DNA of 64,000 nucleotides from Styela clava (Eukaryota > Chordata > Ascidiacea > Stolidobranchia > Styelidae), in assembly GCF_964204865.1 (NCBI RefSeq), contig NC_135258.1, positions 11,647,001-11,711,000 of the forward strand, written 5' to 3'. Shown here one piece after another: positions 45,201-63,821 of this stretch (position 1 is the stretch's first letter; each line of letters begins with the position of its first letter). The notes beneath the pieces were generated by a model, which saw only the letters and a list, made by a program, of their open reading frames with translations, was not told the origin of the DNA and searched no databases. Position numbers and translations under genes: made by a program.

Positions 45201-48128
45201 GTGGTGAACTGATCAATTGTCGAGTTCCAGTTCTTCCACAGAACACAGCAGAATTTCCATGAGTTATTTCACCACATTCATTACTGATTTCGACACCATG
45301 TGATTCTCTGGACCTTGTTATTGGAAAAATATAGTTTGATGACATTTGATTAGCAGAGCATGGTACTAGCTATTAAATACACCTGAATTTAAAGCACAAA
45401 GTCACTAGGGCTCAAGCTGCCTTTCAGTGATTCTACCAAGATACTGATATTATTACCGGTAATATTGAACTCAATAAAAAACTAGCTTGACTTGTGCATT
45501 TAAGTTATTTAAATATTCCAAAACACCAGTATAAGAAGTACATTATATAATGACTCCTAATTAATTTATAGTCATATTTCTTACCAAATATCAAACAAAT
45601 CTTCACTGGAATCAAAATCATCTCGAATAATCACTCCATCAGAATGGATATCCGCTAAAACAAGGTTAGAATTATATTGAGAACAAATGATGAAAACATC
45701 CCTTCAAAAAATATATCATCAGTCAAGGTTGCAAGTTTATGCTCTCAGTGATGAAAAGTTGTTGACAAATGTGTCTAACTCACTATTTGTGTTGCAAACA
45801 TTAATATGGAAATCATTACTGCCTCTTTAAATTAAAACTAGATGAATAGGAAATATAAAAAAGTCTCACAACCTATAACAAATAACATTTATGGAGGGCA
45901 GTTATTCACCCCTTTCGCTCTGAACAAGACTCTGTATGAGCAAGAGCCAATATATAACGATCCACTGTTTTTGGAAGGATTTGATTCATTCTAGATTGGC
46001 GTTACCCTGGGCAGGGTGGTAGGCATGGAATTCGAATCCGAGATGTGTAACCTATGACGTCAGCCTTCCTAGGTTTAAATTTAACGCGTTAATCACTAGG
46101 CCACCCAGCCTAATTATGTATGACTGTGTGGATTTGTTACTTAAAGAATGATGGCATTAGAAAGAATTAAGCTTGGATTTTTCTACTAATGATTTTATCT
46201 GATTCTTACTCACTACATAGTTGTTTTTTCTTGGTAAAAACACTAGTTTTTTAACCATCAAGTACAATGAACACATACCTAAACTTGGTCTCAGGTTTTT
46301 CACGTCTTGGCCAGATTCGCATATTTGATAAGCAACAACATCCTGGAAGACAATTTGCATTCGCAAAGAAGCCGTCAGCCTGAAGTAAAATTTTTAAAAA
46401 TGTGTAAGCTTTGTGCTACAAAACTCAATAGCTACAATCTACCATTTTAATCAAGAAATTTTATTACAAAAATCAAAATTGCCCGAACCGTAAAAGCGGG
46501 ATTTTCGCATTAGAAAGGAATATTAACACTCACAGGAAACTGACACAGCCTGTCCCTTCCTCTGGTGCAGTCCATGAAAATGTAACTTCACTGGTTGGCT
46601 TTTTGTAAGGAGATATATCAGAGTATAACAATCCGCAGATAAAATCAGATGAGACGTGATGATGGTGACTAAACCCTGAAGTATATACTGATCACGCATT
46701 CTGGAATTATACGCACAAAACTACGGAGCCACTACGGAAAACTTGAAAATGCAATAACGAGATCGCGGCAATAATGTAGGCACATTCATTTAAAGTTGAT
46801 TGAATATCAGTAATTTTGGCAATTCCGGCTATTAGCTGTCGTGCGCCATTCTTGTCGCAGACCCGTAAGGAACAATATATATCCATAAGATAGATATTGA
46901 AGAATTGTGACGATCAAGTTGACAATAATTGACATTGTGACATTTATGTTCGTTGTTGGCCATTAGGATCAGGCAACCGCAGTATAGAGTTCAAGCTATG
47001 GACTGGACAGTTTGCCACCATGTTACACAACAAAAATATAATGATATATAGTAACCTTGATAACATCCTCCGTTAACCCTTTACATACATTTGCATATAC
47101 ATGTCCAGGGGTGACTGACAGTCTGGTATCAATGGCATATATACTATAAATGCCGCAACGAGGACTAAATTATGTGCGTATTTTGCCGAAGTATAGTTTA
47201 AAGCAAATGTCACAAGCCCGAAAGGAAAATACTCGATTAAGATGGCAGTAATGAACAATCAAATCAGCTTTTGAAATCGCATAGTTTACCACATTTGATA
47301 TACAGTAGTGCGAATCTCGTGCCTGGCGTTGATTAGGTACAATAGCGCACGCGTCATATTTTGTTGATAAATTGGGACAACTCACCGATGCTTGTCATTC
47401 CATACGACGATGGTAATAGTTTCTCTTTGTGTTGTAAAGATGAAAATAACCCAGTGATCAGAAGGCCATTGAAATCTTTGCTACTGGTGACTCTCACTAA
47501 AACGGAAATAGTTCACTATCATTATTTCATGATGCGGTTAAAATCTGAATAAAACAATCAATTTTTACTATTAAACGAGACCTGAAGACGATGCTTAAAT
47601 GATCAAAATTTACACGATTATGTGGTATTATTTCAGAAACCACCATTTGCTTGCATATGGGTTAATTTATCCATTTTCTCCATTCTGCAAACAATAGGAT
47701 ATTGATAATACTTTCCGTATAGCATTACTTATGTTGAGCATTATAATAAAAACACATGTTTATCTACAAATATATATAATCAAATTCCAAATACCCATAC
47801 GTCATAAAAATTCAATGTTCGTTTTTGCACAACTGCAATTTTTATCTGTTCGAACTTTTGTTGAAATCGTGGCAGCATGGTGACACTCCGCCTTACCTCG
47901 GTATGTTTCTCCGGGCTCATATGAGGTTGGATTTCCATCCAACGCGACTGATAAAAGTAATTTATCGTGTGTGTGCGGCATTGGATCCAATTTTCCGTGA
48001 TAATTGCACAAGAAAAAGTGTGGGGAAAGACATTCCACACCAATCCATCGTGATGTTAAAATAGTGAATAATATAAATAATGACGAACTTCTAAGATGGG
48101 CAAACGACCGGAATCGCTCCATTGTCAT
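11999..48128 (-). CDS. RELN: reelin, complete gene, 67 coding exons, 3,610 aa
   Basis: Secreted extracellular-matrix glycoprotein. In vertebrates it signals through VLDLR/ApoER2 and Dab1 to position neurons. I assembled 67 exons by matching translated segments to the reelin repeat pattern. All have GT/AG borders, all junctions are in phase, and the total is 10,833 nt including stop. Human reelin has 3,460 residues and about 65 exons. The order is signal peptide (hydrophobic core near residues 15-24), reeler domain, an N-terminal subrepeat, eight reelin repeats each with an EGF module, and a tail. Hallmarks recur throughout: [15 protein letters not shown], CSGHGxC and YSTDxGxTW. Exon coordinates are in the domain entries. 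The start at 48128 (MTMERF) is six bases before a second ATG; an AG at 48134-48135 lies only 5 bases upstream. Most introns are 150-900 bases. Assignment is secure; a few exon edges could shift by several bases. Confidence 0.96.
12643..16056 (-). other. RELN: RELN exons 59-66: repeat 8 with EGF module 8
   Basis: Exons 15928-16056 ([20 protein letters not shown]), 15080-15255 ([16 protein letters not shown]), 14873-14949 ([11 protein letters not shown]), 14269-14427 (YEFKN-type [13 protein letters not shown] end), 13983-14140 ([29 protein letters not shown]), 13388-13613 (EGF end, [14 protein letters not shown]), 13052-13259 ([24 protein letters not shown]) and 12643-12737 ([20 protein letters not shown]). 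All repeat landmarks are present, and the last one leads straight into the tail exon. Confidence 0.92.
15340..15720. repeat. interspersed repeat in RELN intron 59 (copy also near 31215-31480)
   Basis: Shared strings such as acttcgtgtccaatta/aag, gacaacaa..ctt.aaccactg and caattcagtagttg-like segments link this block to one in intron 31 (31215-31480), in the same orientation. An open frame at 15275-15556 on the plus strand lies mostly inside it and shows no recognisable domain. Confidence 0.45.
16385..19118 (-). other. RELN: RELN exons 52-58: repeat 7 with EGF module 7
   Basis: Exons 19060-19118, 18588-18751, 17933-18147 ([18 protein letters not shown]), 17600-17828 ([22 protein letters not shown] to [11 protein letters not shown]), 17095-17267, 16725-16825 (LLQYSTDG) and 16385-16528 ([18 protein letters not shown]). 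Exon 52 is very short; the roughly 30-residue vertebrate linker between repeats 6 and 7, which holds the C-terminal processing site, is largely missing. EGF 7 contains about 17 extra residues between its third and fourth cysteines. Confidence 0.92.
19554..22813 (-). other. RELN: RELN exons 46-51: repeat 6 with EGF module 6
   Basis: Exons 22566-22813 (Cys- and Ser-rich start of the A subrepeat), 22002-22178 ([16 protein letters not shown]), 21134-21284 ([17 protein letters not shown] start [11 protein letters not shown]), 20399-20576 (EGF end [15 protein letters not shown]), 19989-20185 ([20 protein letters not shown]) and 19554-19688 ([20 protein letters not shown]). Repeat 6 carries the key receptor-binding lysines in vertebrates. 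The A subrepeat here (exon 46) is among the most diverged parts of the protein. Confidence 0.91.
25641..25917. mobile_element. MITE with ACTTATCGAT terminal inverted repeats (copy 1), in RELN intron 41
   Basis: Starts ACTTATCGAT and ends ATCGATAAGT, an exact inverted pair. The 277-bp body, including gggatcccccaaaacagcgc and a run of cagacagacagataaacaga near the right end, matches 51958-52229 closely. No coding capacity: a non-autonomous DNA element. Confidence 0.65.
26868..26945 (-). repeat. SINE fragment in RELN intron 39
   Basis: The segment with tcgtccggttaccagtccac and gagtatgagattagtt matches the body of the full-length SINE at 5985-6331 (its bases near 6070-6110). The tRNA head and tail are missing. 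Confidence 0.5.
27627..31070 (-). other. RELN: RELN exons 32-38: repeat 4 with EGF module 4
   Basis: Exons 30864-31070 ([10 protein letters not shown], then [16 protein letters not shown]), 30346-30510 ([19 protein letters not shown]), 29868-29970, 29211-29369 ([12 protein letters not shown] start [11 protein letters not shown]), 28668-28765 (EGF end, then [13 protein letters not shown]), 28285-28452 (IRMISTT, YMQFHV) and 27627-27815 (FRIWQA in place of RWWQP). The EGF module has about seven extra residues between its third and fourth cysteines. Its intron again follows the fourth cysteine in phase 2. Confidence 0.92.
30655..30775 (+). repeat. SINE fragment in RELN intron 32, opposite orientation
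   Basis: The string tgaagtccatgcatac, followed by gccatacccagcctgaactgg, resembles the reverse complement of the body of the 5985-6331 SINE. It is degenerate and only part of the element. Confidence 0.35.
31550..35288 (-). other. RELN: RELN exons 25-31: repeat 3 with EGF module 3
   Basis: Exons 35154-35288 ([10 protein letters not shown] closing repeat 2), 34716-34868 ([16 protein letters not shown]), 33792-34069 ([23 protein letters not shown]), 33098-33285 (EGF start [11 protein letters not shown]), 32263-32533, 32059-32188 ([13 protein letters not shown]) and 31550-31664 (FRWWQP). Exon 29 holds an insertion of about 25 residues (around [11 protein letters not shown] to ENICE) that vertebrate repeat 3 lacks. 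Repeats 3-6 form the central receptor-binding fragment in vertebrates. Confidence 0.92.
32768..32970 (+). repeat. short interspersed element with GTACATTTGAACCCA units (copy 2), in RELN intron 28
   Basis: Inverted copy of the block at 9015-9195. It opens GGTGACCGTACATTTGAACC with a second unit directly behind it, and closes with matching inverted units ending taatggaacc. Confidence 0.6.
35368..38094 (-). other. RELN: RELN exons 18-24: end of repeat 1 and repeat 2 with EGF module 2
   Basis: Exons 37855-38094 ([20 protein letters not shown]), 37290-37497 ([15 protein letters not shown]), 37072-37184, 36512-36646 (EGF start [11 protein letters not shown]), 36052-36247 (EGF end [10 protein letters not shown]), 35606-35720 ([12 protein letters not shown]) and 35368-35528 ([21 protein letters not shown]). 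EGF 2 departs from the usual GHG (here RNRG). It again has a phase-2 intron after the fourth cysteine. The start of repeat 2 between exons 18 and 19 is shorter and more diverged than in vertebrates. Confidence 0.92.
36838..36995 (-). repeat. degenerate tRNA-SINE copy in RELN intron 20
   Basis: Plus-strand strings gatttgaacctgcgaacct and ctaatgcttagca correspond to the B box and head of the SINE at 5985-6331. The copy is diverged and lacks the ATCCT tail. Confidence 0.5.
38283..39126. mobile_element. non-autonomous hAT-like element in RELN intron 17
   Basis: Starts CAGTGGTTCCCAACC and ends GGTTGAGAACCACCG, an imperfect inverted pair typical of hAT termini. It is flanked by an 8-bp duplication, TTCTACTT (38275-38282) and TTCTACCT (39127-39134), with one mismatch; 8 bp is the hAT target size. 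Sub-terminal gggggccgcgac and gggggccacga are the GC-rich strings usual in such elements. The 844-bp body has no transposase frame. It accounts for nearly all of the large intron between exons 17 and 18. Confidence 0.75.
39168..43051 (-). other. RELN: RELN exons 10-17: reelin repeat 1 with EGF module 1
   Basis: Exons 42906-43051, 42351-42457, 42070-42275 (contains [10 protein letters not shown] and [10 protein letters not shown]), 41517-41645 ([12 protein letters not shown]), 40450-40638 ([13 protein letters not shown] start [11 protein letters not shown]), 40129-40240 (EGF end, [10 protein letters not shown]), 39817-39935 ([16 protein letters not shown]) and 39168-39329 ([14 protein letters not shown]). 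The repeat's final RWWQP and WALDDVILT are in exon 18. The intron inside the EGF module falls directly after its fourth cysteine, in phase 2. Confidence 0.92.
41071..41270 (-). repeat. internally deleted tRNA-SINE copy in RELN intron 13
   Basis: Begins on the plus strand with the tail remnant taggataggatttacatatt and ends with a head remnant near 41270. The central part present at 6120-6220 in the full copy is missing. Its A and B boxes are decayed. Confidence 0.6.
43683..45654 (-). other. RELN: RELN exons 5-9: N-terminal subrepeat before repeat 1
   Basis: Exons 45585-45654 ([19 protein letters not shown]), 45162-45313 ([16 protein letters not shown]), 44795-44885, 44256-44475 ([10 protein letters not shown] and [11 protein letters not shown]) and 43683-43822 ([13 protein letters not shown]). 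The order and spacing match the unpaired subrepeat that precedes reelin repeat 1 in vertebrates, including the junction W|S split in phase 2 between exons 5 and 6. Confidence 0.9.
45950..46110 (-). repeat. second tRNA-derived SINE family, in RELN intron 4
   Basis: Read on the minus strand: head GGCTGGGTGGCCTAGTGATT with an A-box-like segment, then a B-box-like GGATTCGAATTCC. It differs from the 5985-6331 family. Similar plus-strand stretches containing gggtgaggtg lie near 18940 and 24465, suggesting more members in other reelin introns. Confidence 0.45.
46279..48128 (-). other. RELN: RELN exons 1-4: signal peptide and reeler domain
   Basis: Exons 47897-48128, 47386-47496, 46534-46675 and 46279-46379 (residues 1-195). 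After the signal peptide the protein continues [11 protein letters not shown], close to the vertebrate start of the mature protein (FFFLCTHHGEL). GETYR joins [17 protein letters not shown] across the first intron, and [15 protein letters not shown] matches the end of the reeler fold. In vertebrates this region mediates higher-order assembly. The second exon ends SIG, followed by [14 protein letters not shown], as in the human order. Confidence 0.9.
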
Positions 48129-48135
48129 TACAACT
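48129..48135 (-). promoter_or_regulatory. RELN: AG acceptor 5 bases upstream of the RELN start codon
   Basis: On the minus strand GTTTAG precedes TTGTA and then ATG. If used, for instance for spliced-leader addition or a 5' UTR intron, the mature leader would be very short. The tract before it is only moderately pyrimidine-rich. Confidence 0.3.
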
Positions 48136-49928
48136 AAACATTAATAAACGAGGGAATAATAAGCTTGCTTGAAATAAGAAGAAGAGCATATAAACACATC
48201 TCGGCATATTTAATTCTCGTTGTCACCGAATTCGCCCGTTACAATTAAATACTGACTTTTTACAGATAATTAATTGTCAGAATATAATAAACCAAATAAA
48301 ATAGTCTTTTATTGTCTGCGGTTGTTCACTAAACTTATTTATATAATTGATAAATATTAACTGAATCAATTGATATTTTACTGATCATCTTTGTAGTAGG
48401 CATAAAAAAAGAAAGCGATGCATATGTCGAACCTGCTTATGTCAAGTTATGCAACGTAAACGCATTCTGATTTAAAACTTTGGATCTATCTTTACCTCAT
48501 AGACCATAAATTATTATGTAAGATACATTGCTGAAAAGCTCCACTAAACGCTGCAGATTCTCCCTCTCTTTCAAACAGCGAATATTTTTTCAACATAAAC
48601 TATACTTCCTGTGAACACAAGGCGCCGATTTTACGAGTACTTTTCCGTGAAGCATAACGAAAACTCTAGTTTTTGAGAACAAGTACGGATTAAGGGAAAT
48701 AATACGATTTAAACGATTTGTTTTTCCAGACGTCCGGCAAGCCATTGGCATAATATTTTGCATGTGTATGCGGAAATCGATTTCCGACTCTGAAGATTCT
48801 GGACACATGTTACTCCCGGGTAAGCAAGGGCCGGACAGTGACAGGTGCTTGATTTAATGGCCGTATTATTGAGTGTAACTTTTATTACGTTTGTGCGTGA
48901 AATTGACGTAGAAAGACAAAAATAGGACTTGTTGTATAGTTGATAAAATCATTTATATGCTCTTGACATATGGAGAATTAATTTAGTCATACCCCACTTC
49001 AGTTTCGATTTCTTCAACTTAAAAGGGTGTTGACCTATCCTGCTTGAATCTATGATTAAACACATTTTCTAAACTTCACTTATCTACACTGTAAAGAGAA
49101 TTGGAGTTTTTGATAACTTTTCCACCAAACTAGCGCGTGTAGCGCATCTATAACTGATCGCCTCTCGGCCAAAAAGCGCATAACTTTCAAAGAAGTTACA
49201 ACTACAGTTATAGACCATGGCGATCCACTGACCCATCGGTCATAAGAAGAACCACCATGTCTTCCGACAACTATGTCACGAATTAACGCAAAGGAAACAT
49301 AGTAACATTTTCGTGATAACACAACCGACTTTAATTCACTCTAACAGAACTTAAACTACTATAGTATTTCAGAAAGCTGCAGACAACAATGCTGTCACGC
49401 GGTTTATGGCATGGTAAAAATGTTCTGTTCATTTATGAAATATCAATAGAGCTGGAACGCTTAAACTTTAATTCCCTTTCAAACTCTAAAAATCATGAAA
49501 TATCCCCCCATAGCATTATGAACGTTCTTCGGCAATTCATATGTTTGCGAAGCCGTGTTTTCGCCGAAGTCTTGCTTGTGTAAGACACAGAACTACACAA
49601 TACCAATCAATGATTATAGGACTCGATTAGAAGATGCTAAAGAAAGTTACTATTTGATGCACCCATTTATTAGGTTCTCCATTCCGATACAGTCTTTTTC
49701 TTCAATGCGTATCATAATGGCATACGATACTTCCAAGGGTGGAAGAAAATCGATTCTGTTTTTCATACAGTTTCATCCAAACCAAGTATTTACATCCAAG
49801 AAACGATTTAATAGCGAAAAACGCCTAATCGAACGAACTTTTTTGTAGTAATCTTTGTCACCGAAGCAATTATTTAAATCATTTGAAACCAGCGCTGTGG
49901 TCTTTGTTACCGAAGCAATTATATAAAT
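48136..49928. other. upstream region of RELN; no gene seen
   Basis: Presumed to contain the reelin promoter, but no core element could be assigned. The open frames on both strands are short, overlap one another and lack splice partners. Confidence 0.4.
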
Positions 49929-50582: not shown

Positions 50583-51957
50583 AATTATAAATCATGTTAA
50601 ACCAGCGCTATGGTACCGAAAAAAATTTACAATGGTCAAATAAACGAGCTTGGAGAAAATCCTATTTTGATAACAATAACACTGCTGTATGCGAGCCCCT
50701 TCAATTAACAGGCTGAACTCAAACACAGCATACGCGATTTTACAACCACCCAGAAATATCCCTTTCGTCGCTCTCCGACAATATTTTACACTCGACCGTT
50801 TCCTACCCCACGCCGGCGCAAAATATAACATACCGGCGGCGGACGTCGATATTTGAATTTAACGAAACATTGAAAAAGTTCTATAAACTTTTACTTCCGG
50901 TGAAGTTCAAAGTTTAAATCATTTCTGAGCTCATGATATCATCACATCCGTTAAAACAGTGTAATCATTTTATTATTTCAATCATGATGAAAAATAAACA
51001 TAAACAAAACATCGCTCATAATTGATCAAAATTTGTTCTCTACTAAGCATGAACAAAAGAAAATTGATCACAAATTCATAGATGAGCCATATTAAACCAA
51101 TGATAATTTGGGAACCCTGTTCATTATATAGAACGATTATAGATTATTATTGTTTAGTTTTCAATGATCAAACTTGAATCTTGAGAAATCGTACATCACA
51201 TAAATGTATTCAAATTATTGTTTATAAATATTAACTTTGATCAGAAATCACTTCCTACATCTTGCGAAATCCGGAAATCTATTTGATCACGTTTGATCAT
51301 ATATGGAATATATATCATTCTAGTCTGCCGCACATAAAACTCTTCATACGAAATCATACAGATATCTGATCACATCGAAATTAACAGTTCTGAAAAGGGT
51401 AAAAATACCATAATTTAAAACATTTTCATCCTTGAAGGATTCATTATTAGAAATAGTTCCTAAGTATCAAGGTGTTACTGGTAATTGTCATCCTTGACTA
51501 TATATATTTTGGTGCAGTGCAACTGCCATATTTATCAGAGATGCAGCAACAATGGTTTTATTTATTTAAATGTTCGTTTTAGATAAAATAGCAATTAAAT
51601 AACACATGAAGATTTCTCCTGAAAAAGCAGTTGAACAATATTATAATTGAAAGAAATTCAAGCATTTATTATATTCATACAGAAGCACATAATAATAAAC
51701 AAAAGAATTCAAAACAAAACTATCACTATCAATATTAACTACAAAATACATCAATTTTACCATTATTTTTCAATGTTTATGTTTATAAATAATTTCATAA
51801 ACTTGTGATTTCATCACATCCATTAATAAACAAAAAAAATCATCGACAATAATTACACTCGTCCAAGCATTGAACAAAAAATGGTCACACTTGATCAGTG
51901 ATGTGCAGCCGAATAAATACAAATTTTAAAATAATTTTGAGCAAACACACAAACAAG
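50583..51957. other. no gene seen; contains a short GC-rich patch
   Basis: The patch at about 50755-50860 is far richer in GC than its surroundings (strings such as cgccggcgca and ggcggcggacgtcg). It could be an old transposon end or a promoter. A short repeat, atcatcacatccgtt, near 50940, recurs in altered form near 51805. Confidence 0.35.
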
Positions 51958-52229
51958 ACTATCGATCGGAAGTTAGGGGATCCCCCAAAACAGCGCTCTT
52001 ACTCCATAGTGACACCTCGTGTCCCATCACTAATTAATTAATAACTCGCTAATTATATGACATAATTCGCCCAAAATCAATAGGTTTCTGGTCCGAGATA
52101 AGATGAATGCACATGCAAAATCTGGAGCAGATTCAATCTCGCTTTCGTGAGATATCGCGTGCATCTAACAGACAAACAAACAGACGGACAAATACCTATC
52201 AACATACTTACCGATTAGAATCGATAGGT
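51958..52229. mobile_element. MITE with TATCGAT termini (copy 2), just past the ORC5 3' end
   Basis: Close copy of 25641-25917 in the same orientation, with slightly different tips (ACTATCGAT on the left, ATCGATAGGT on the right). It lies about 80 bases beyond the ORC5 poly(A) signal. Confidence 0.65.
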
Positions 52230-52309
52230 AATAAGAGTAGACTTCAAGCAATGCCCATAAATGAGTAATTTGAAATATGAGTTTACAGTTTTTTAAAAAT
52301 TCAAATTTT

Positions 52310-52315
52310 TTTATT
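52310..52315 (-). terminator. ORC5: poly(A) signal of ORC5
   Basis: AATAAA on the minus strand, 81 bases after the ORC5 stop. Confidence 0.55.
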
Positions 52316-52395
52316 GTTCAAGAGACTTGGGGCAATATAGAACCAGAAGTTTGGGAAATATAAAATTGCACAAATAAACTGTAAGAAAACAATAT

Positions 52396-55300
52396 TCACC
52401 TTGATATTGCTTGTATGAAATCAAGTGAAACAACACATTTGTATTTTGGAGAATCAATTTGGTCTTCATGCCCAACTTGGGAAAGTAAATGTAGTGAAAC
52501 AAGAGAGGTTATCTGAACAGAAAAATAAAGGAGAGAAAGATTACAAATCACCTCAGTAAACAGTATATACGTTACATATAGAAATGAAAGAATATTGAAC
52601 TATGATACTTGAGAACGTTTTATACAAATCTTGAGGAAAGGAGTTATTTTATTGAAGAATATTAACACCAACGACAAACATATATGATGATTTATATAAA
52701 ATAAATGAATTCGGAAATATTATGTCAAAAGTTTTTAGCATCCATATTTGGTGATAGAACAAACTAAGGTGTTGGGGAGATTGTATTGTACAAACGAACT
52801 GTCATTATCTGAGAGCGTAGATGTAGATAGATAGGTGGTGCTATTGAATAAATTTACCAATAAAATGTCAATGAAAAGAATTCGTCAGGCTGTTCAGCAT
52901 CTAATTATGAGCAAGTTGAGTAAATGATAGAGTGTGAGGTTTGACCATACATTTACAATTTACCTGGGAGAATATATTGGCAGTAGGAGGAACTTTTCCA
53001 TCTACTATAGAGTAAAATATTGCCATCAATCTATCAAGCGGGAAGGCTTTTGGTCCTCGTAAATGAGCACTTTTCTGTTCATCTTTTTTCATGCTTTTCA
53101 AAGTTTTCTTATTTTTTCCAGCGCTCTGTTAAAAAAAACTCTCTCAGAATGCTTTGTGGTTATTTATAGAGCATGAAGTAAATATAATAACTAGCATAAC
53201 AGAAACATAATTTATTTAATTAGACTAATTGGGTCGAGCAGGACTGGGACTAGTAACTAGTTGTCATTCTTCATGTTATTGCTCTATTGGATCCTTCGGG
53301 AGAGTAAGGATGAAGAAGTGATTCTGAAGTCTTTTTGTTTTGTCTGTCACAAGTTATATTTCTGACATATTATCCGACTAAGGCCATAATTCCGCAGGCA
53401 ACTATGTTTCGACTTAATTAGATGATAAGTTACAGTTTAAGCCTAGATTTTTTTGCCCCAAAACACCCTTTTTATGTCGTCTTGCGGAACAAACACCAAG
53501 AAATTAAAATGTAGAATTGGTCAGTGATTTCCAAAAAACTTCGCCTATGGCAAAAATGAAATGTTCAATGTAAACTTGACAGTTAAAAAATTAGGCCGAC
53601 GGTTAACAAAATTGAACGGTTAATGAAAACTCCATGCTTTCCATACTAGTACGAGGCCTGTCCACCTGTTTGTCGCTATTTGGGAGACAGCTTTATGACC
53701 CAAAGTCGCCGAAGTAAGTTCTGTTTCACACAGTTCGAGAAACGCTGGCTTATACCCTCCAACCTATGATTTAAAACTAGATTCTGAATATATTCTATCA
53801 TTTTGACATATTCATCACACCACATATATTCTATCATATCACCCAAATCAAAGTGTTAAATAATTCAGGGATAAAACCCATCAGAGCATTAACCATCTCA
53901 ATAAATCAGAACCACCCACCTTGACAAAGAAACGAAGGTCAGTTTTCACAGGATTATATGAAGCAAGATAAGCAGCAATGACAAGAAATTTAGAATAGAA
54001 AGGCAATTCAACAATTCCTGATTTGGCACGTTTCGGTGTTGTTGATGTCACAGACTCTAAATCTTTAAAATTGCTTGGCAAACTAATTTCATCTTCTGTT
54101 GACTTTACATGCAACTTCGTCCATTCAGAACTAAATTAAACATATAACTTTGTATTACTTCAGGTTGAAGGCATGCTAGAAAAATTGAAGTATTTGAATG
54201 CTTTTATACATTGAAGTAAGTTTGTCTAACATAGTTTCTCAACATCAGATTGAACTGATTCAAATATAATATCTATTTTAATTATGCATAAATAATTGCC
54301 ATGTGAAAGTGCCATATTATATACTCAACAGGAATCAAATCAATCTATAAAATAAAGAGAACAATTTCATTCCAACCTTGATATTTCTCTGAGATATAAT
54401 GAATGCAATGCATTCTTCAAGTATGGTTCAATGTTCTTCCATAGTTTATGTTTATCAGATTCCGTTGCTTCTTCTTTCTTAATTGGTTCACAGTAAATAG
54501 GAAAATTGATCTCTGCCTGCAATAAGAAAGATTCCTATAGAACAAGCCCTAGAACATATAGGTACTGATTTGGCATTCATATTTTTCCTTTTCCATATAG
54601 GGAAAAAAAAATGTGACAGCATATTGACGTCAGATCAAATCCACGGCTAATAATAGATTGTTTAAATATTATTCTGTGTAATAGGTATTTGAACCAGATT
54701 TCTAAGATGTGCCAAAATGATTGTCAGCGGGCTTAACAACCTGAATTATATACGCTCATGTAATCACAACTTTTACAGAGATGCTTTTTAGAACACTTGT
54801 GTGAAGATTGATATTCTAGAATCAATTATAAAAAACGCATCATGTTAAAGCTGGAACAGCAACCATGATAGCTCAGTTTACAATTACGCTACAAATATTA
54901 TCTGAATACCAATGGAAAATCATTTTTGTATCGCATTCATTCTGATAAGCATAACCTATAACACAGTACTATAATCTGCATTCTGCAATAGAACTCAACT
55001 GAAGAACAGTAAGAAACATACCAAGTGACGTAACTCTCTCAAGTCCCTGCATGCAGTGTAAAACACAGACAATACAATCCCTATATAATCCTTGTAAAAT
55101 TCTTCTGAAGAATCTGGAGGCCTCAATAAAGTAATTATCTTTTGTAGTTCCTCTGTTAATAAAATAAACTACACATATTAACAAAAGTGTATGAAAAACA
55201 GTCTATTTCCAGTTGATTACCCTTGTTGAGAATGTAGCACAACAAAAGTGGAGTTTGCATAAGGGTCTGAGTGCGAATCGTTATCTCCCAACTCTCCAAA

Positions 55301-58071
55301 GTTGGTGGTAAAAATTAAAATTGTCCGCGGCCTACTGTTAAAATTAACACTTCCTAAAACAGCACAGGAGTCAAAATTTTAAATGAAGTCGATTAAGATT
55401 GGCTAATGCCAAAATTTTTGTAGTTAAAATTTTTTAACCCCTAAACAGAAAATCTAGATTATTTCAATTTATACCAACCACATCACTTGAAATTCATGTC
55501 AATTACTCATAATTATACAACTCAAATATAACTTCACCTTTGGTATAGTCTGGGAAAAACATGATGAAAGGACTCTTCCCTGCAATACCGTTGTAATATT
55601 TTTCCCAGGTAACTTCGCTCTCAAAAATGACACATATATTACAGCCACTCTAAATAAAAATGTGTATCCGCTAGTAGGTAAGTGGCATTTGTCATAAGAT
55701 GAAATTTTTATACTTGCCGAGATAAATAAACAGATATGACGACTTCATAATATAGCAACCATGACATCTCATTTGGTTACAAATCCATGTCAAGATTCGG
55801 AATACTTACCCAGTTATTTGCTTCAGATGCATAGAATTATACTGATCAGTGGCTACACACGACTTTCTTTGGTGGTGACTAGACGCCCAGCAATACTGTT
55901 GCATTTAATTATAACCCATTAGACTTAAACCAGCAAGCAGGTCGGCATCTCAGAATGTACCCTCAGAATGTTTGGGAACCCTATAACCACATGGTCTTGA
56001 AAAATGGCCAAATTTACAACCTGTGGCCAAGTTACAAAGTAAATTTCCACGTTTAAGCTATATTTTTGTATAAGCTATAAGTGTTTAAGAAATTTTAAAC
56101 AAACTGATGAGAAAATTCATATACTCACAATTTCTTGCAAATTCAATAATGCAGGAATGAGATTTACTTCTCGATCTCTCAGTCGATCAGCTTTGCTCAA
56201 AATCTAAAAATGACGAAATAGAAAAAGCGCGATTCTCCGAATATAACAACCTTGCCTTAAAAATTAGCATTCCAGCAAGAAAAGTCCTTTACCAGAATAA
56301 TGGATAAATTGATTCAAGCAAGACCAAATATGATATATCAAGAATTATGTCCATTGTTGACGTAGATATGCCATTTTAGCCAATTCCCAATAAGCACATT
56401 CATTTCAACTACACTAATAGTAATAACTCACAATATATGTTGTTTCATTCGGAAAAAAAGAAGTCAACATTTTCTTCAAAAATCGAACAAAGTCATTTGT
56501 ATTTTCGCATTTCTTTGGAGGTACAAATTCACTTCTTGCATCATCCGCTTTACTATGAAAATACAAGCCACGCAACACTTCTTGATAGAGGATATTGGTT
56601 GTGTAACATTCTACACAGTTCACTACAACATGAGGAAGCTATAAAAATAAATGGGTAGGTAATAGTGTATATAATTAGGAGATTGACTTGCTATCAAATT
56701 AAAACTTAATTCAAATGGTTTAAGTAAGAGGTATGCAACATTTTTTGTGGGTGAGCTATATAACTACCGAAAGTTCAGACATCTAGCCCAGCCACACAAA
56801 AGATTTAGCGAGAAAGGCAAGAGAAGAGAATGAATGCGGCTATCGCTTAGCCTTGATTACAATTATAAAATGGCAAAAGATTTAGTAACGCGGCAACAAA
56901 AGCAAGAACACATTATGTATTTTTATCCATGTGAGCCCCTTTCCAAATATAAACTGTAGGATTATGATTTCGTGCCTAATGGGGAAAAACCAAAAAGATG
57001 AATTTTTGAAATCTTACTTTCAGTATTCAGTTAACTTTTTGTGTTCATGAGTGCAGCTTAGCTAAATCATAATAATGTACTAAAGCACTCAGTCAAGAGA
57101 GCCAATTCCTACTACAATACAAAATCTTTATTCCTTACATTGAGTTTAGGAAAATTGGCCAAACCAGTAAATAAATAAATGGGTTGATTATAGAAAAACA
57201 GTATACCAATGTTTAAATCTCACATTTAATTTTAGCTATCAGTGGATTGCTAGTTTGGTCAATCAATCATCAAGCAAAAAATATTATTCAATATAAAATC
57301 AAATACATTCAATGCAGATAACAATTATTGTACTTTTTAATATCAATCAATATAATAGATATCCATAACATGGACTTTAGCACACATATTACAATAGACA
57401 ACATATCAGGAAAAATGACATCAGACAAAATAAAACTAAAACACAGCCACAGATTACAGTGACATGACAAGCATGTGACACTATTGCATAACAAACGATA
57501 AACATCAGGAAGAGATATAAAGGATAATACATCATTACATTGTATGGATAATACTTTCCTATTGAAAAAAAAATGCTAAACGTTGATATACTACAGTATA
57601 ACTATTTCTACCATTCTTATTTGTACATTGTGCAAAGACCCAATAGTTTATGCATTATATATTATAAAAAAAAATTATTGTAAAAATTGACCCCAAACTG
57701 GATAACAACATAATTCTTATGTAAGAAGTTGCACCTGACATAATTTTTCCTTGAAAATTACGATTATTCGAATTTAAATTTAAGTTAAATATTCAAATAA
57801 ATAACTATAAATGTAATAATGTTTTTATTAATTTGAAGGCACTTACCTCGTAATATTCCATTATACTTTCAAGAACAACGGATTTACCACAAGATGCATG
57901 ACCGTACATAAATATAGAAGAAACAGTGTATTGATAAGGTTCACCCATAAGTGTCAAAAGATCACTAATTTGTTTTTCTCGGCATGGGAGTAACGAATGT
58001 AAAGCCTGAGTGTCATAGTCATCTTCTTCTGGATGATCTTCGACTGAAACATTTTTTCTTTTCTTGGGCAT
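52396..58071 (-). CDS. ORC5: origin recognition complex subunit 5, 9 exons, 459 aa
   Basis: Subunit of the nuclear complex that marks replication origins and loads the MCM helicase. Exons: 57847-58071, 56432-56638, 56129-56203, 55538-55649, 55022-55152, 54377-54516, 53920-54130, 52964-53125, 52396-52512; all in phase, 1,380 nt with stop (human protein 435 aa). Landmarks: N-terminal PKKRK basic run, Walker A GHASCGKS (57-64), [83 protein letters not shown] and PTANIFSQ. The Walker B segment reads IILSKAD where human has IVLDKAE, so the aspartate is a serine. The frame stops shortly after SLDFIQAIS, about 14 residues before the human end; a further 3' exon cannot be excluded because a GTGAAT donor overlaps the stop. 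Its ATG lies 19 bases after the SNAPIN stop. Confidence 0.93.
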
Positions 58072-58092
58072 TATGTATTCGACTGTTTTATT
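58072..58092 (-). promoter_or_regulatory. SNAPIN-ORC5 intercistronic junction: poly(A) signal plus trans-splice acceptor
   Basis: Nineteen bases (58072-58090) separate the SNAPIN stop from the ORC5 ATG. On the minus strand AATAAA (58087-58092) overlaps the stop codon, and a CAG (58083-58085) follows at once, leaving an 11-base leader TCGAATACATA before ATG. No room exists for a promoter. This is the arrangement expected for an operon resolved by cleavage/polyadenylation of the first message and spliced-leader addition to the second. Confidence 0.7.
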
Positions 58093-59264
58093 ATTTCGAT
58101 TCAGCTGATGTTGATGGTTGATTTGATTGAGTTGAGGTGCTTTGAGTCTGAATATTGAGATCTAACAATGCTTTTTGCGTTTCAGAATGGGCTTTGTGAC
58201 GAATTACTTCTTTTTCTGCGTTCCTATAAAATTTGAAGACAAAATTTATAAAATGCATATGTTAGGAAATAAGAGTGGGGAGACATGAGAGTTATTCATT
58301 TTTTGCACTCACCATACAGCAAAGAAGATAAAGACAAATTATTCTTAAATATTGCTTCAAGCTCGAATAAAACACAAGCACGAATCTAATTGAAAAACAT
58401 GAACACAGATAAAGCTGTGGAACTTTGTTAGTTATTAGGTAATAGGCTTGATGGAAGAGATAGAGACAAATCATAAATATTTTACAGCTATTCTTATTCA
58501 AAACATTTTTCTAATATCACTCACAAACTCACTTGTGAAGTTTAATTAGTCTTTCTTGAACGTTCTGAACAATATTACTTATGAGAACAACTCTTCTTTT
58601 TGTGCTGATGAGGCGTTGTACATAAGGCTCAAGATCAATATTAACTTGATGTTCTTCGCTGATCTTTTGCAATTCGTTTGTTACTGCTTCTATTTGCTGT
58701 CGCAATTCCAACTGAAAATATACATAATAGAAAATAATGAAAATTAGTTTTATATTTTACAATGCGAACATATATTTTACTATGCGAAAATATTTCCCTA
58801 TTTCAAGGAAGTACCGATAATGTATCCCATTTTTTTGCCTATCTAAAAAATAAAAACCCTATCGAAAGTAATAACGCACACTACAATAATTGTGGAACAT
58901 GAACATTGGGAACGCTAAAAAGACACTGTTGACAAAGTCAACACAAGCAAGGAAAAATATTTGAGTTGAATATTAAAATATTTGAATGGCATTTGCTATT
59001 CGAATATTTGATAACACACGACCTGTGGCACTTTACTTGCTCAGTACATTTGTGCCCAGGCAGAAATAACATAATGGGTAGATGGTATTGAAGCTAGGCT
59101 ACTAAAAGGCACATGCAAACAAGGCATTAAGAACCACATACTTGGCTTTCTCTGACTTTTTGAACCTGAGTGTCAACTTGTTCTACAGCAGGTTTCAACA
59201 ATTGAAATATTCCATTACTTATATCTTGACCAGATGACGAAAGAACATTTGCAGAAGCAGCCAT
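58091..59264 (-). CDS. SNAPIN: SNAPIN (BLOC-1 / SNARE-associated protein), 3 exons, 144 aa
   Basis: Small coiled-coil protein. In vertebrates it is a BLOC-1/BORC subunit that acts in lysosome and endosome positioning and binds SNAP25 in synaptic vesicle fusion. Exons: 59142-59264, 58533-58711, 58091-58223, in phase, 435 nt with stop; the human protein has 136 aa. The N-terminal part LLKPAVEQVDTQVQKVRESQ matches human LRPAVQQLDSHVHAVRESQ. The core LDLxPYV-like VNIDLEPYVQRL, then RRVVLISNIVQNVQERL, is closely conserved. The C-terminal end is rich in Ser/Thr/Gln and diverged. The predicted helices cover roughly residues 20-115. Start: the first ATG in the conserved frame, with two very short upstream ATG frames before it. 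It is the first gene of the apparent pair with ORC5. Confidence 0.93.
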
Positions 59265-61003: not shown

Positions 61004-62473
61004 CTACATTGAGCCATAAAAGTATGAAACCAAAGCTCCAAATGCAGCCAGCAAGAATAACTTGAGAACAAACTTCACTGCAGCAGGAACTGGACCTTTT
61101 TTGAATCCTACAAAACCAAGAATTGAATGCTGCCAATCAGTATAGGGTGGGTATCGCAATCTGTTAATCATTTCTGGTGTTCCACATTCATAATAGGAAC
61201 GTTGATGACAAAATGAATCGAATGAAAATTTACCATGATACATTCCCATCCCGCTACCACCAACACCTCCAAAAGGTAATTCAACCTCATTATGCTGCAT
61301 CAAAAGTTCATTTACCGTCACTCCTCCACTTGAAGTTTCAGCGATAATTTTATCTATCACACGTCGATCTCTGGCGAAGATTGACATCTGCAGAGATTTT
61401 TCTTCGTTGTTTATTACTCTGATGGCATCATCAACGTTTTCCACCGTAAAAATAGGTAAAATGGGACCAAAAATTTCTTCCTTGCGAATTGGAGCATCCT
61501 CTTTTATATTTGTTACTATTGTTGGAGAAATGTATTTTTCCTTTTCATCTACGACTCCGCCATAAACAACATCAACACCTTCTAGAAGCCCTTCAAGGCG
61601 TTTTACATGTCGTTCATTGACAATTCGACAAAAGCTTGATGATTTCCGAGGATCTTCCCCAAAATACTCCTCAATGAATTGTTTCAACTTCTGAATTAGT
61701 GGTCTTACCATATGCTGTTCGCATAGAATATAGTCAGGAGCTACACAAATCTGACCACAATTCGTCCACTTTCCCCAAGCAATTCGACGAGCAGCAGATT
61801 CGAGATCGCAACTCTTGTCAACAACACAGGGATTTTTTCCTCCAAGTTCGAGAATAACAGGCGTCAAGGTTTTTGCGGCGGCTTGCATAACTAATTTGCC
61901 TACATGGCATCCACCTGTATAAAAAATCAAGTCAAACTTATGATTGTTGACCAGATCACTAGATTCCTTCGGTCCAGCCATGACTACTTTATAACAATCA
62001 GGATCCAGGTATAAGGGAATTAATTTATGCAATAAACTTGCAGTTGCAGAAGTTAGTTCAGACGGCTTCAAGAGGATACAATTTCCTGCAGCGATTGCAC
62101 CAGCCATGGGCTGCAAAGACAATAGCAAAGGATAATTCCAAGCCCCTATGATTAAACACACACCCAGAGGCTCTTTCCTTATATGCACTGTATTCAAAAT
62201 AGCCAATAAGCTTTTAGAACATTTTTGAGGTTTGACCTGTTCATCTATACACCCTAACATTCGAACAATCTCATTATGAATCCCCATTATTTCCATTATA
62301 TCAGTTTCCGCTGGATTTTTGTGAAGATCTTGATACACAGCATCACAGAGTTCTTTCTTAGCTTCTCGTAACATTCTCAGAAGAGCCAACAGTTGAGTCT
62401 TTCTCCATCCTGCTGACCTGGTCTTCCCAGATTTAAAATTATCCTTGAGAGTTTTGACTTCATTTGCAAACAT
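61004..62473 (-). CDS. class-3 (fatty) aldehyde dehydrogenase with C-terminal membrane anchor, intronless, 489 aa
   Basis: Oxidises medium- and long-chain fatty aldehydes to acids with NAD(P)+, by similarity to ALDH3A2/ALDH3B. Catalytic Cys239 lies in WGKWTNCGQICVAPDY and the general base Glu209 in LELGGKNP. GAWNYP contains the oxyanion Asn113. EEIFGPILPI and LPFGGVGGSGMGMYHGK are family signatures. The cofactor-loop motif usually FTGS is YTGG here. Residues about 464-485 are hydrophobic, like the tail anchor that holds ALDH3A2 on the endoplasmic reticulum. Length fits the family (about 485). The whole gene is one exon, whereas vertebrate ALDH3 genes have many introns. That suggests a retroposed copy or lineage-specific intron loss. 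The start MFANEVKTLK aligns with the usual family start. Which vertebrate paralog it corresponds to cannot be settled from sequence reading. Confidence 0.93.
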   Translation of the reverse strand: MFANEVKTLKDNFKSGKTRSAGWRKTQLLALLRMLREAKKELCDAVYQDLHKNPAETDIMEIMGIHNEIVRMLGCIDEQVKPQKCSKSLLAILNTVHIRKEPLGVCLIIGAWNYPLLLSLQPMAGAIAAGNCILLKPSELTSATASLLHKLIPLYLDPDCYKVVMAGPKESSDLVNNHKFDLIFYTGGCHVGKLVMQAAAKTLTPVILELGGKNPCVVDKSCDLESAARRIAWGKWTNCGQICVAPDYILCEQHMVRPLIQKLKQFIEEYFGEDPRKSSSFCRIVNERHVKRLEGLLEGVDVVYGGVVDEKEKYISPTIVTNIKEDAPIRKEEIFGPILPIFTVENVDDAIRVINNEEKSLQMSIFARDRRVIDKIIAETSSGGVTVNELLMQHNEVELPFGGVGGSGMGMYHGKFSFDSFCHQRSYYECGTPEMINRLRYPPYTDWQHSILGFVGFKKGPVPAAVKFVLKLFLLAAFGALVSYFYGSM

Positions 62474-62936
62474 CCTTGATTCTTGATATCACCTATGTCA
62501 CTAGATATTAAGCTACCAGCAATGAATAAATATGAATTAAAAAAAGTTTTCCAGACTTTTTGATTTGAGGTCATAAAGACAGGAATAGCATATCAGCATG
62601 TTGCTATGTAATATGCAAGTCAGCAAGTGAAATATCTATCTATGGAACAATATACAGATTTTGTTTGGCTGTCAGTTATTCCTCAATTCTCTCTGATCCA
62701 AAACGACTAAGTTGCTATTCCAAATATATTCATGTATTCTGAAAGCAATGCTAAGCGTTAGGAATGATCACGCCACCACACCTCTGATTACCCTGCGTAG
62801 GTTCACAGCAAGTGTGAAAGGACTGCTAGAATTGCTGACTTAACCTGGTGTCCCGGTTACGGCTCCCATCATCATCAAAGTCTGTTTACTGCTAATTAAG
62901 TGTTTGTTGTATGAAAGAATCTCCACGATGTGGAGA
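62474..62936. other. spacer between ALDH and the U2 array
   Basis: Contains the left part of the first U2 repeat unit, with a SINE remnant from about 62751. No coding exon seen. Confidence 0.4.
62751..62870 (+). repeat. tRNA-SINE remnant in the first U2 spacer
   Basis: The plus-strand string gctaagcgttaggaatgatc, then cacctctgattaccctgcgt and aggttcacagc, matches the head of the 5985-6331 SINE family, with the B box damaged. The second unit carries the same remnant at 63428-63560. Confidence 0.6.
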
Positions 62937-63124
62937 GTGGGCCGAACCTGAAGGTACTGCAATACCAGGACAACCCGTGGGAGTGGTGTGGCAAGCCACA
63001 AAACCAAACCCTGAGGCACAAAAATCAAATTAATACAAGAGTGGGGGAGTACCCCACATTTCAGGTATTAATCTGAAAAGAACAGATACTACACTTGATC
63101 TTAGCCAAAAGGCCGAGAAGCGAT
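62937..63124 (-). ncRNA. RNU2: U2 spliceosomal RNA, copy 1
   Basis: Core RNA of the U2 snRNP, which pairs with the intron branch point. The minus strand starts at 63124 with ATCGCTTCTCGGCCTTTTGG, identical to the conserved U2 5' end. It continues with the branch-point recognition sequence GTGTAGTA, stem IIa (TTTCAG...CTGAAA), an Sm-site-like GATTTTTG and the terminal stem around CCTGGTATTGCAGTACC. The 3' end is set at 188 nt by comparison with the family (ends GGCCCAC). Relative to copy 2 it has three substitutions in the 3' half; one, CCTTCAGG for CCTCCAGG, falls in the terminal stem. Confidence 0.93.
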
Positions 63125-63560: not shown

Positions 63561-63633
63561 CCACCGTCATCACAGCCCTTTTTTACTGTTAATTAACTAT
63601 TTATTGTATGAAAGAATCTCCACGATGTGGAGA

Positions 63634-63821
63634 GTGGGCCGAACCTGGAGGTACTGCAATACCAGGACAACCCGTGGGAGTGGTGTGGCAAGCCACAAAG
63701 CCAAACCCTGAGGTACAAAAATCAAATTAATACAAGAGTGGGGGAGTACCCCACATTTCAGGTATTAATCTGAAAAGAACAGATACTACACTTGATCTTA
63801 GCCAAAAGGCCGAGAAGCGAT
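63634..63821 (-). ncRNA. RNU2: U2 spliceosomal RNA, copy 2
   Basis: Same 188-nt gene as at 62937-63124, with the 5' end at 63821. It has the canonical CCTCCAGG in the terminal stem, so this copy looks the more typical of the two. Confidence 0.93.

Follow-up and report, generated by a model that had tools for sequence, protein, structure and literature searches.

SNAPIN and ORC5 lie 19 bases apart on one strand of a tunicate genome and may form a dicistronic operon

Introduction

In Ciona intestinalis, 1,310 candidate operons have been counted as same-strand gene pairs less than 100 bp apart (Satou et al., 2008; PMC2760879). Tunicate operons are resolved by a spliced leader and have little or no gap between their genes. 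The Ciona pairs mostly abut directly where 5'-full-length ESTs exist, as they do for 1,158 of 1,599 downstream genes (PMC2760879). A re-analysis put the median distance at 1 bp (PMC7986045). SL1-type operons of Caenorhabditis are likewise described as being without an intercistronic region (PMC9258526), with the acceptor of the downstream gene adjoining the 3' end of the upstream gene. Botryllus provides another close tunicate pair, fuhc-sec and fuhc-tm, for which linked transcripts were detected; its gap is 227 bp, and no leader was found on its downstream gene (PMC3691228).

Here we describe a pair, SNAPIN and ORC5, found in a 64-kb window (the whole stretch of DNA that was analysed). Like the dicistronic operons of Ciona (PMC2760879), it belongs to a tunicate, its genes share a strand and its gap, at 19 nt, is far below 100 bp; barring overlap, therefore, no more than a few bases can part the 3' end of the upstream message from the 5' end of the downstream one. 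The Caenorhabditis SL1-type operons show a similar adjacency, and the Botryllus pair is far more widely spaced. An operon of SNAPIN and ORC5 was not found named in the literature searched, which covered few subscription journals.

Results

The two genes and their setting

SNAPIN is a minus-strand gene of three coding exons encoding 144 aa, and its identity rests on PF14712 (E 1.1e-23) and on a SNAPIN homolog in the PDB (E 4.5e-5); intron 2 occupies 58532-58224. The features of the locus are as follows.

59142..59264, minus strand: SNAPIN exon 1, from the ATG, coding; PF14712 is matched by the joined protein
58533..58711, minus strand: SNAPIN exon 2, coding
58091..58223, minus strand: SNAPIN exon 3, coding, with the stop TAA at 58093-58091
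58148..58149, minus strand: alternative AG within the coding sequence of SNAPIN exon 3; score 5.9, 76 bases to the ORC5 ATG
58087..58092, minus strand: AATAAA overlapping the SNAPIN stop, read from the sequence
58072..58090, minus strand: gap between the SNAPIN and ORC5 coding sequences, 19 nt
58083..58085, minus strand: CAG, the proposed trans-splice acceptor, weak (T at 3 of 17 positions, score -2.5)
51344..58071, minus strand: ORC5 gene, with some ten coding exons joined by hand
57847..58071, minus strand: ORC5 exon 1, from the ATG, coding; matches PDB ORC5 chains together with exon 2
58071, 56638, 56203, 55649, 55152, 54516, 54130, 53125, 52512, 51389, minus strand: starts of the ORC5 exons, joins by hand

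For ORC5, exons 1 and 2 together matched PDB ORC5 chains with a best E of 1.2e-24, in an alignment that begins at residue 4 of chain 5uj7_E, presumably the human protein. Three later frames scored above the cut-off of ORC5_C and two gave matches to ORC5_lid that fell short of its cut-off, while exon 1 alone gave an AAA_16 match just under its cut-off and exon 2 alone matched no Pfam family. Exons 3, 4 and 10 were placed solely on what we take to be a resemblance to human ORC5. The alignment with the PDB chain begins no earlier than residue 24 of the predicted protein, whose N-terminus reads MPKKRKN (58051-58071, minus strand) and, we presume, resembles a basic nuclear localisation signal.

The genome searched comprises 376.6 Mb in 379 contigs. 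It holds a CesA-like glycosyltransferase (GT2) frame (PF13632, 1.6e-16; PF03552, 7.3e-7) and, about 2 kb past it, a GH6 domain (E 1.5e-6 when the genome was searched and 9.9e-11 for the frame), a close combination that we take to be a hallmark of tunicates and on which the tunicate setting of the pair is based. COX1 (PF00115) had no match, leaving the mitochondrial code out of the evidence.

Several other genes were recognized in the same window. A single open frame at 61004-62479 encodes an aldehyde dehydrogenase (PF00171, 4.3e-87); like SNAPIN it is on the minus strand, and it lies about 1.7 kb upstream of that gene. A reelin-like gene at about 12700-48140 (minus strand) lies about 3 kb from the pair, its extent and distance being judged by eye; one of its frames contains Reelin_subrepeat-B (1.3e-10), another EGF_2 and a weak Reelin_subrepeat-B, and a domain search of a third frame from this region (47802-48140) gave no match. 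Two tandem U2 snRNA genes occupy 62932-63124 and 63629-63821 (minus strand; Rfam 174.3 and 178.7 bits), with starts 697 bp apart.

Layout of the junction

The sequence-only reading had described a 19-base same-strand gap, an AATAAA over the SNAPIN stop and a CAG 11 bases 5' of the ORC5 ATG, and we find all three features in place. On the minus strand, the gap at 58090-58072 reads TAAAACAGTCGAATACATA (19 nt), the AATAAA at 58092-58087 shares two bases with the stop TAA at 58093-58091, and the CAG lies at 58085-58083, ahead of the ORC5 ATG at 58071-58069. The SNAPIN stop is followed by an in-frame second TAA. As the two reading frames are offset by one base, with two stops between them, a simple SNAPIN-ORC5 fusion protein is excluded.

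How much of this layout could arise by chance was gauged within the 64-kb window, where 156 arrangements of a stop, 19 nt and an ATG occur in any frame on both strands, SNAPIN–ORC5 included. A YAG falls within the gap in 54 of these 156 arrangements, so the CAG by itself is unremarkable; AATAAA is present in 16, and AATAAA followed by YAG in two. What stands out is that two genuine genes on one strand are parted by just 19 bases. Across the 152 nt from the start of SNAPIN exon 3 to the ORC5 ATG (58223-58072) there is no ATG in any frame; the same was true of 16.8% of base shuffles of those 152 bases, and the lack of ATGs is therefore a mere hint.

The gap CAG is a poor acceptor

The proposed acceptor was compared with 11 cis acceptors gathered by hand from SNAPIN and ORC5, from which a weight matrix was built. 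Between positions -20 and -4 (17 bases), the CAG at 58083 has 3 T, as against 8 to 12 in the cis acceptors. In SL1-type operons of Caenorhabditis, AAUAAA and the acceptor have a pyrimidine tract between them; unlike these, the CAG is preceded by only 4 pyrimidines in 17 bases (8-15 in the cis acceptors), which is the poorest tract of the 12 acceptors compared. Its matrix score of -2.5 lies below the range of the 11 cis acceptors when each is left out (0.5 to 8.7) and places it at the 45th percentile of the 6,220 AGs on both strands of the window. The matrix comes from few sites and does not cleanly separate true acceptors from chance AGs, with as many as 30% of AGs outscoring the weakest true site, so the case against this CAG is mainly the absence of a T tract. 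Two AGs further upstream, at 58148 and 58224, are stronger acceptors than the CAG. The former scores 5.9, and the latter, which is the acceptor of SNAPIN exon 3, scores 7.9 as a training site and 1.7 when left out. A message joined at either AG would have the ORC5 ATG as its first ATG. The earlier proposal that a leader is joined at 58082 is thus not supported, as this AG lacks a pyrimidine tract and scores low.

A second tight pair

In Ciona, URM1 belongs to the operon DTL-URM1-CHERP (PMC2760879). URM1 was chosen as a probe for this operon membership and is hence a non-random choice; one probe gave one tight pair (n=1). Here URM1 (PF09138, 1.8e-36) is followed on the same strand of contig C4, after 6 bases (AAAACG), by mTERF (PF02536, 1.7e-10), each gene consisting of one open frame, so the partner differs from the downstream gene in Ciona. 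The 6-base gap contains no AG. The 140 bases leading up to the mTERF ATG hold five AGs, each with one or more further ATGs after it; the closest has 35 bases between it and the mTERF ATG and scores -3.4, and the best of the five scores 2.8. The nearest AATAAA or ATTAAA motifs to the junction are inside the coding sequences of URM1 and mTERF. Directly before the URM1 ATG is a good acceptor (score 6.5), which fits a leader or a 5' intron alike. After mTERF comes an opposite-strand gene, methyltransferase-like by eye. On the strength of this single probe, tight packing may be common in this genome.

A codon-usage scan of 194,570 bases for tight frame pairs was uninformative: at the first threshold it returned no matches and missed the true pair too, and it gave 18 matches at the true pair's own scores, 33 at 0/0 and 4 at 3/3, with one training piece out of frame.

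Search for a spliced-leader gene

The exact pattern of the Ciona leader had no match anywhere in the genome, and at up to 3 mismatches it had 644, against 466 for a reversed control. Thirty loci were cut out from the first matches listed, and a near-match variant that recurred among the best of them, inspected in 9 of the 30, was rejected as a dispersed repeat containing ATTCTATTGGAAAAAGGTA.

In Oikopleura, leader genes are linked to 5S genes. The 5S rRNA genes of the present genome form a tandem array on contig C14 (1.615-1.807 Mb), mostly of units of about 1.33 kb, with all 47 scored matches on that contig. A candidate within the 5S unit has a donor GTGAGT followed by AGCTTTGA, which resembles the Ciona Sm motif AGCUUUGG (PMC7986045); it is one of 3 donor-plus-Sm-like matches in one unit. 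All 30 of 30 5S-array loci carried a GTGAGTGCACGTAACCTAGCTTTGA-like sequence in one or more copies. Three such loci, compared with Rfam at E up to 1, matched 5S alone, and the candidate folded no better than its shuffles (z 0.64 and 0.94). Nucleotide diversity was 0.013 in the candidate, compared with 0.019 for the spacer as a whole and 0.026 for the 5S itself (44 of 46 units, the two 934-base units being left out), in a test that had no power. The 5S-array sequence is a weak candidate for a spliced-leader RNA.

A second route to the leader, through retrocopies, used 118 LSM matches in the genome, from which 20 upstream stretches were taken. Four of these 20 contained, at up to 2 mismatches, a stretch of 17 bases that precedes SmG-like copies (SmG being, we presume, SNRPG), and genome-wide this tag occurred at 112 places at up to 1 mismatch, against 5 for the control. 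As a leader this tag was rejected: all 20 of the 20 places fetched away from LSM matches continue into SmG-like sequence and share more than the tag, 17 in one form and 3 in a shorter form. The tag belongs to a dispersed repeat that carries the SmG 5' untranslated region and first codons. These searches established no spliced-leader gene in this genome.

Discussion

On the present analysis, we think it somewhat probable that SNAPIN–ORC5 is a dicistronic tunicate operon of the 'no intercistronic region' type known from Ciona, with a trans-spliced ORC5 message. The 19-nt same-strand gap, the tunicate setting and the second tight pair all favour that part of the sequence-only reading, as does, weakly, the ATG-free stretch before ORC5; its leader site at 58082 is not supported. 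The likeness to described systems has its limits. Unlike the Ciona pairs, whose downstream 5' ends were shown by leader-bearing ESTs (PMC2760879), SNAPIN–ORC5 is known from the genome alone, and the AG in its gap is weak. In contrast to the SL1-type operons, the organism is not a nematode and its genome has the CesA-like and GH6 markers. The coding gap of 19 nt holds both an AATAAA and a CAG.

If the operon reading is correct, a single promoter upstream of SNAPIN would produce one SNAPIN–ORC5 precursor transcript, and a separate ORC5 message would result from joining a spliced leader to an AG that lies at the junction or slightly upstream of it. Cleavage usually takes place 10-30 nt past AATAAA; as just one base separates the AATAAA from the CAG, usual cleavage would land in the leader of ORC5 or within its first codons. 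Processing of each precursor would then probably be an either/or event, giving SNAPIN mRNA or ORC5 mRNA and not both, so that SNAPIN 3' end formation and ORC5 leader addition are probably mutually exclusive on one precursor.

Within the operon reading, addition of the leader exactly at 58082 would agree with the direct abutment typical of Ciona operons (PMC2760879) and with the place of the CAG, one base past the AATAAA and 11 nt before the ATG. This narrower version seems unlikely, given the pyrimidine tract that was the poorest of 12, an AG score that is average and the frequency of YAG among chance arrangements. About as unlikely, on our estimate, is that neither SNAPIN-ORC5 nor URM1-mTERF is resolved within its gap: the leader might be joined at an AG that falls within the coding part of the upstream gene, giving one protein per precursor, or the message might be truly dicistronic.

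An ORC5 promoter within SNAPIN, in intron 2 or in exon 3, would explain the tight packing without trans-splicing, and the ORC5 5' untranslated region would then cross the last exon of SNAPIN. The weakness of the gap CAG is in keeping with such a promoter, as is the ATG-free stretch from the start of SNAPIN exon 3, through which ORC5 would be translated from the first ATG. Against it, most downstream genes of such pairs in Ciona have 5'-full-length ESTs that fit leader addition (PMC2760879), and we judge it rather improbable for ORC5. The operon reading is also preferred to export of a dicistronic mRNA that serves for both proteins without trans-splicing, with ORC5 translated through leaky scanning or reinitiation. 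In favour of such an mRNA are the shortness of the gaps (19 and 6 nt), the weak CAG, and a URM1-mTERF junction with no AG in the gap and its nearest AATAAA or ATTAAA within coding sequence. Against it, the AATAAA over the SNAPIN stop points to a separate 3' end for SNAPIN, and reinitiation after a frame as long as 144 codons is usually poor in eukaryotes, making this the least probable of the alternatives and a distinctly unpromising one.

If SNAPIN–ORC5 is an operon, a known class gains one more member, and packing of this kind would seem to have been kept in a tunicate genome of 376 Mb. A weak acceptor in the SNAPIN–ORC5 gap and the AG-free gap of the second pair raise the question of whether leaders are joined inside the upstream coding sequence. 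Were that so, two proteins would compete for each precursor, a coupling that would be notable for ORC5, which is essential for replication.
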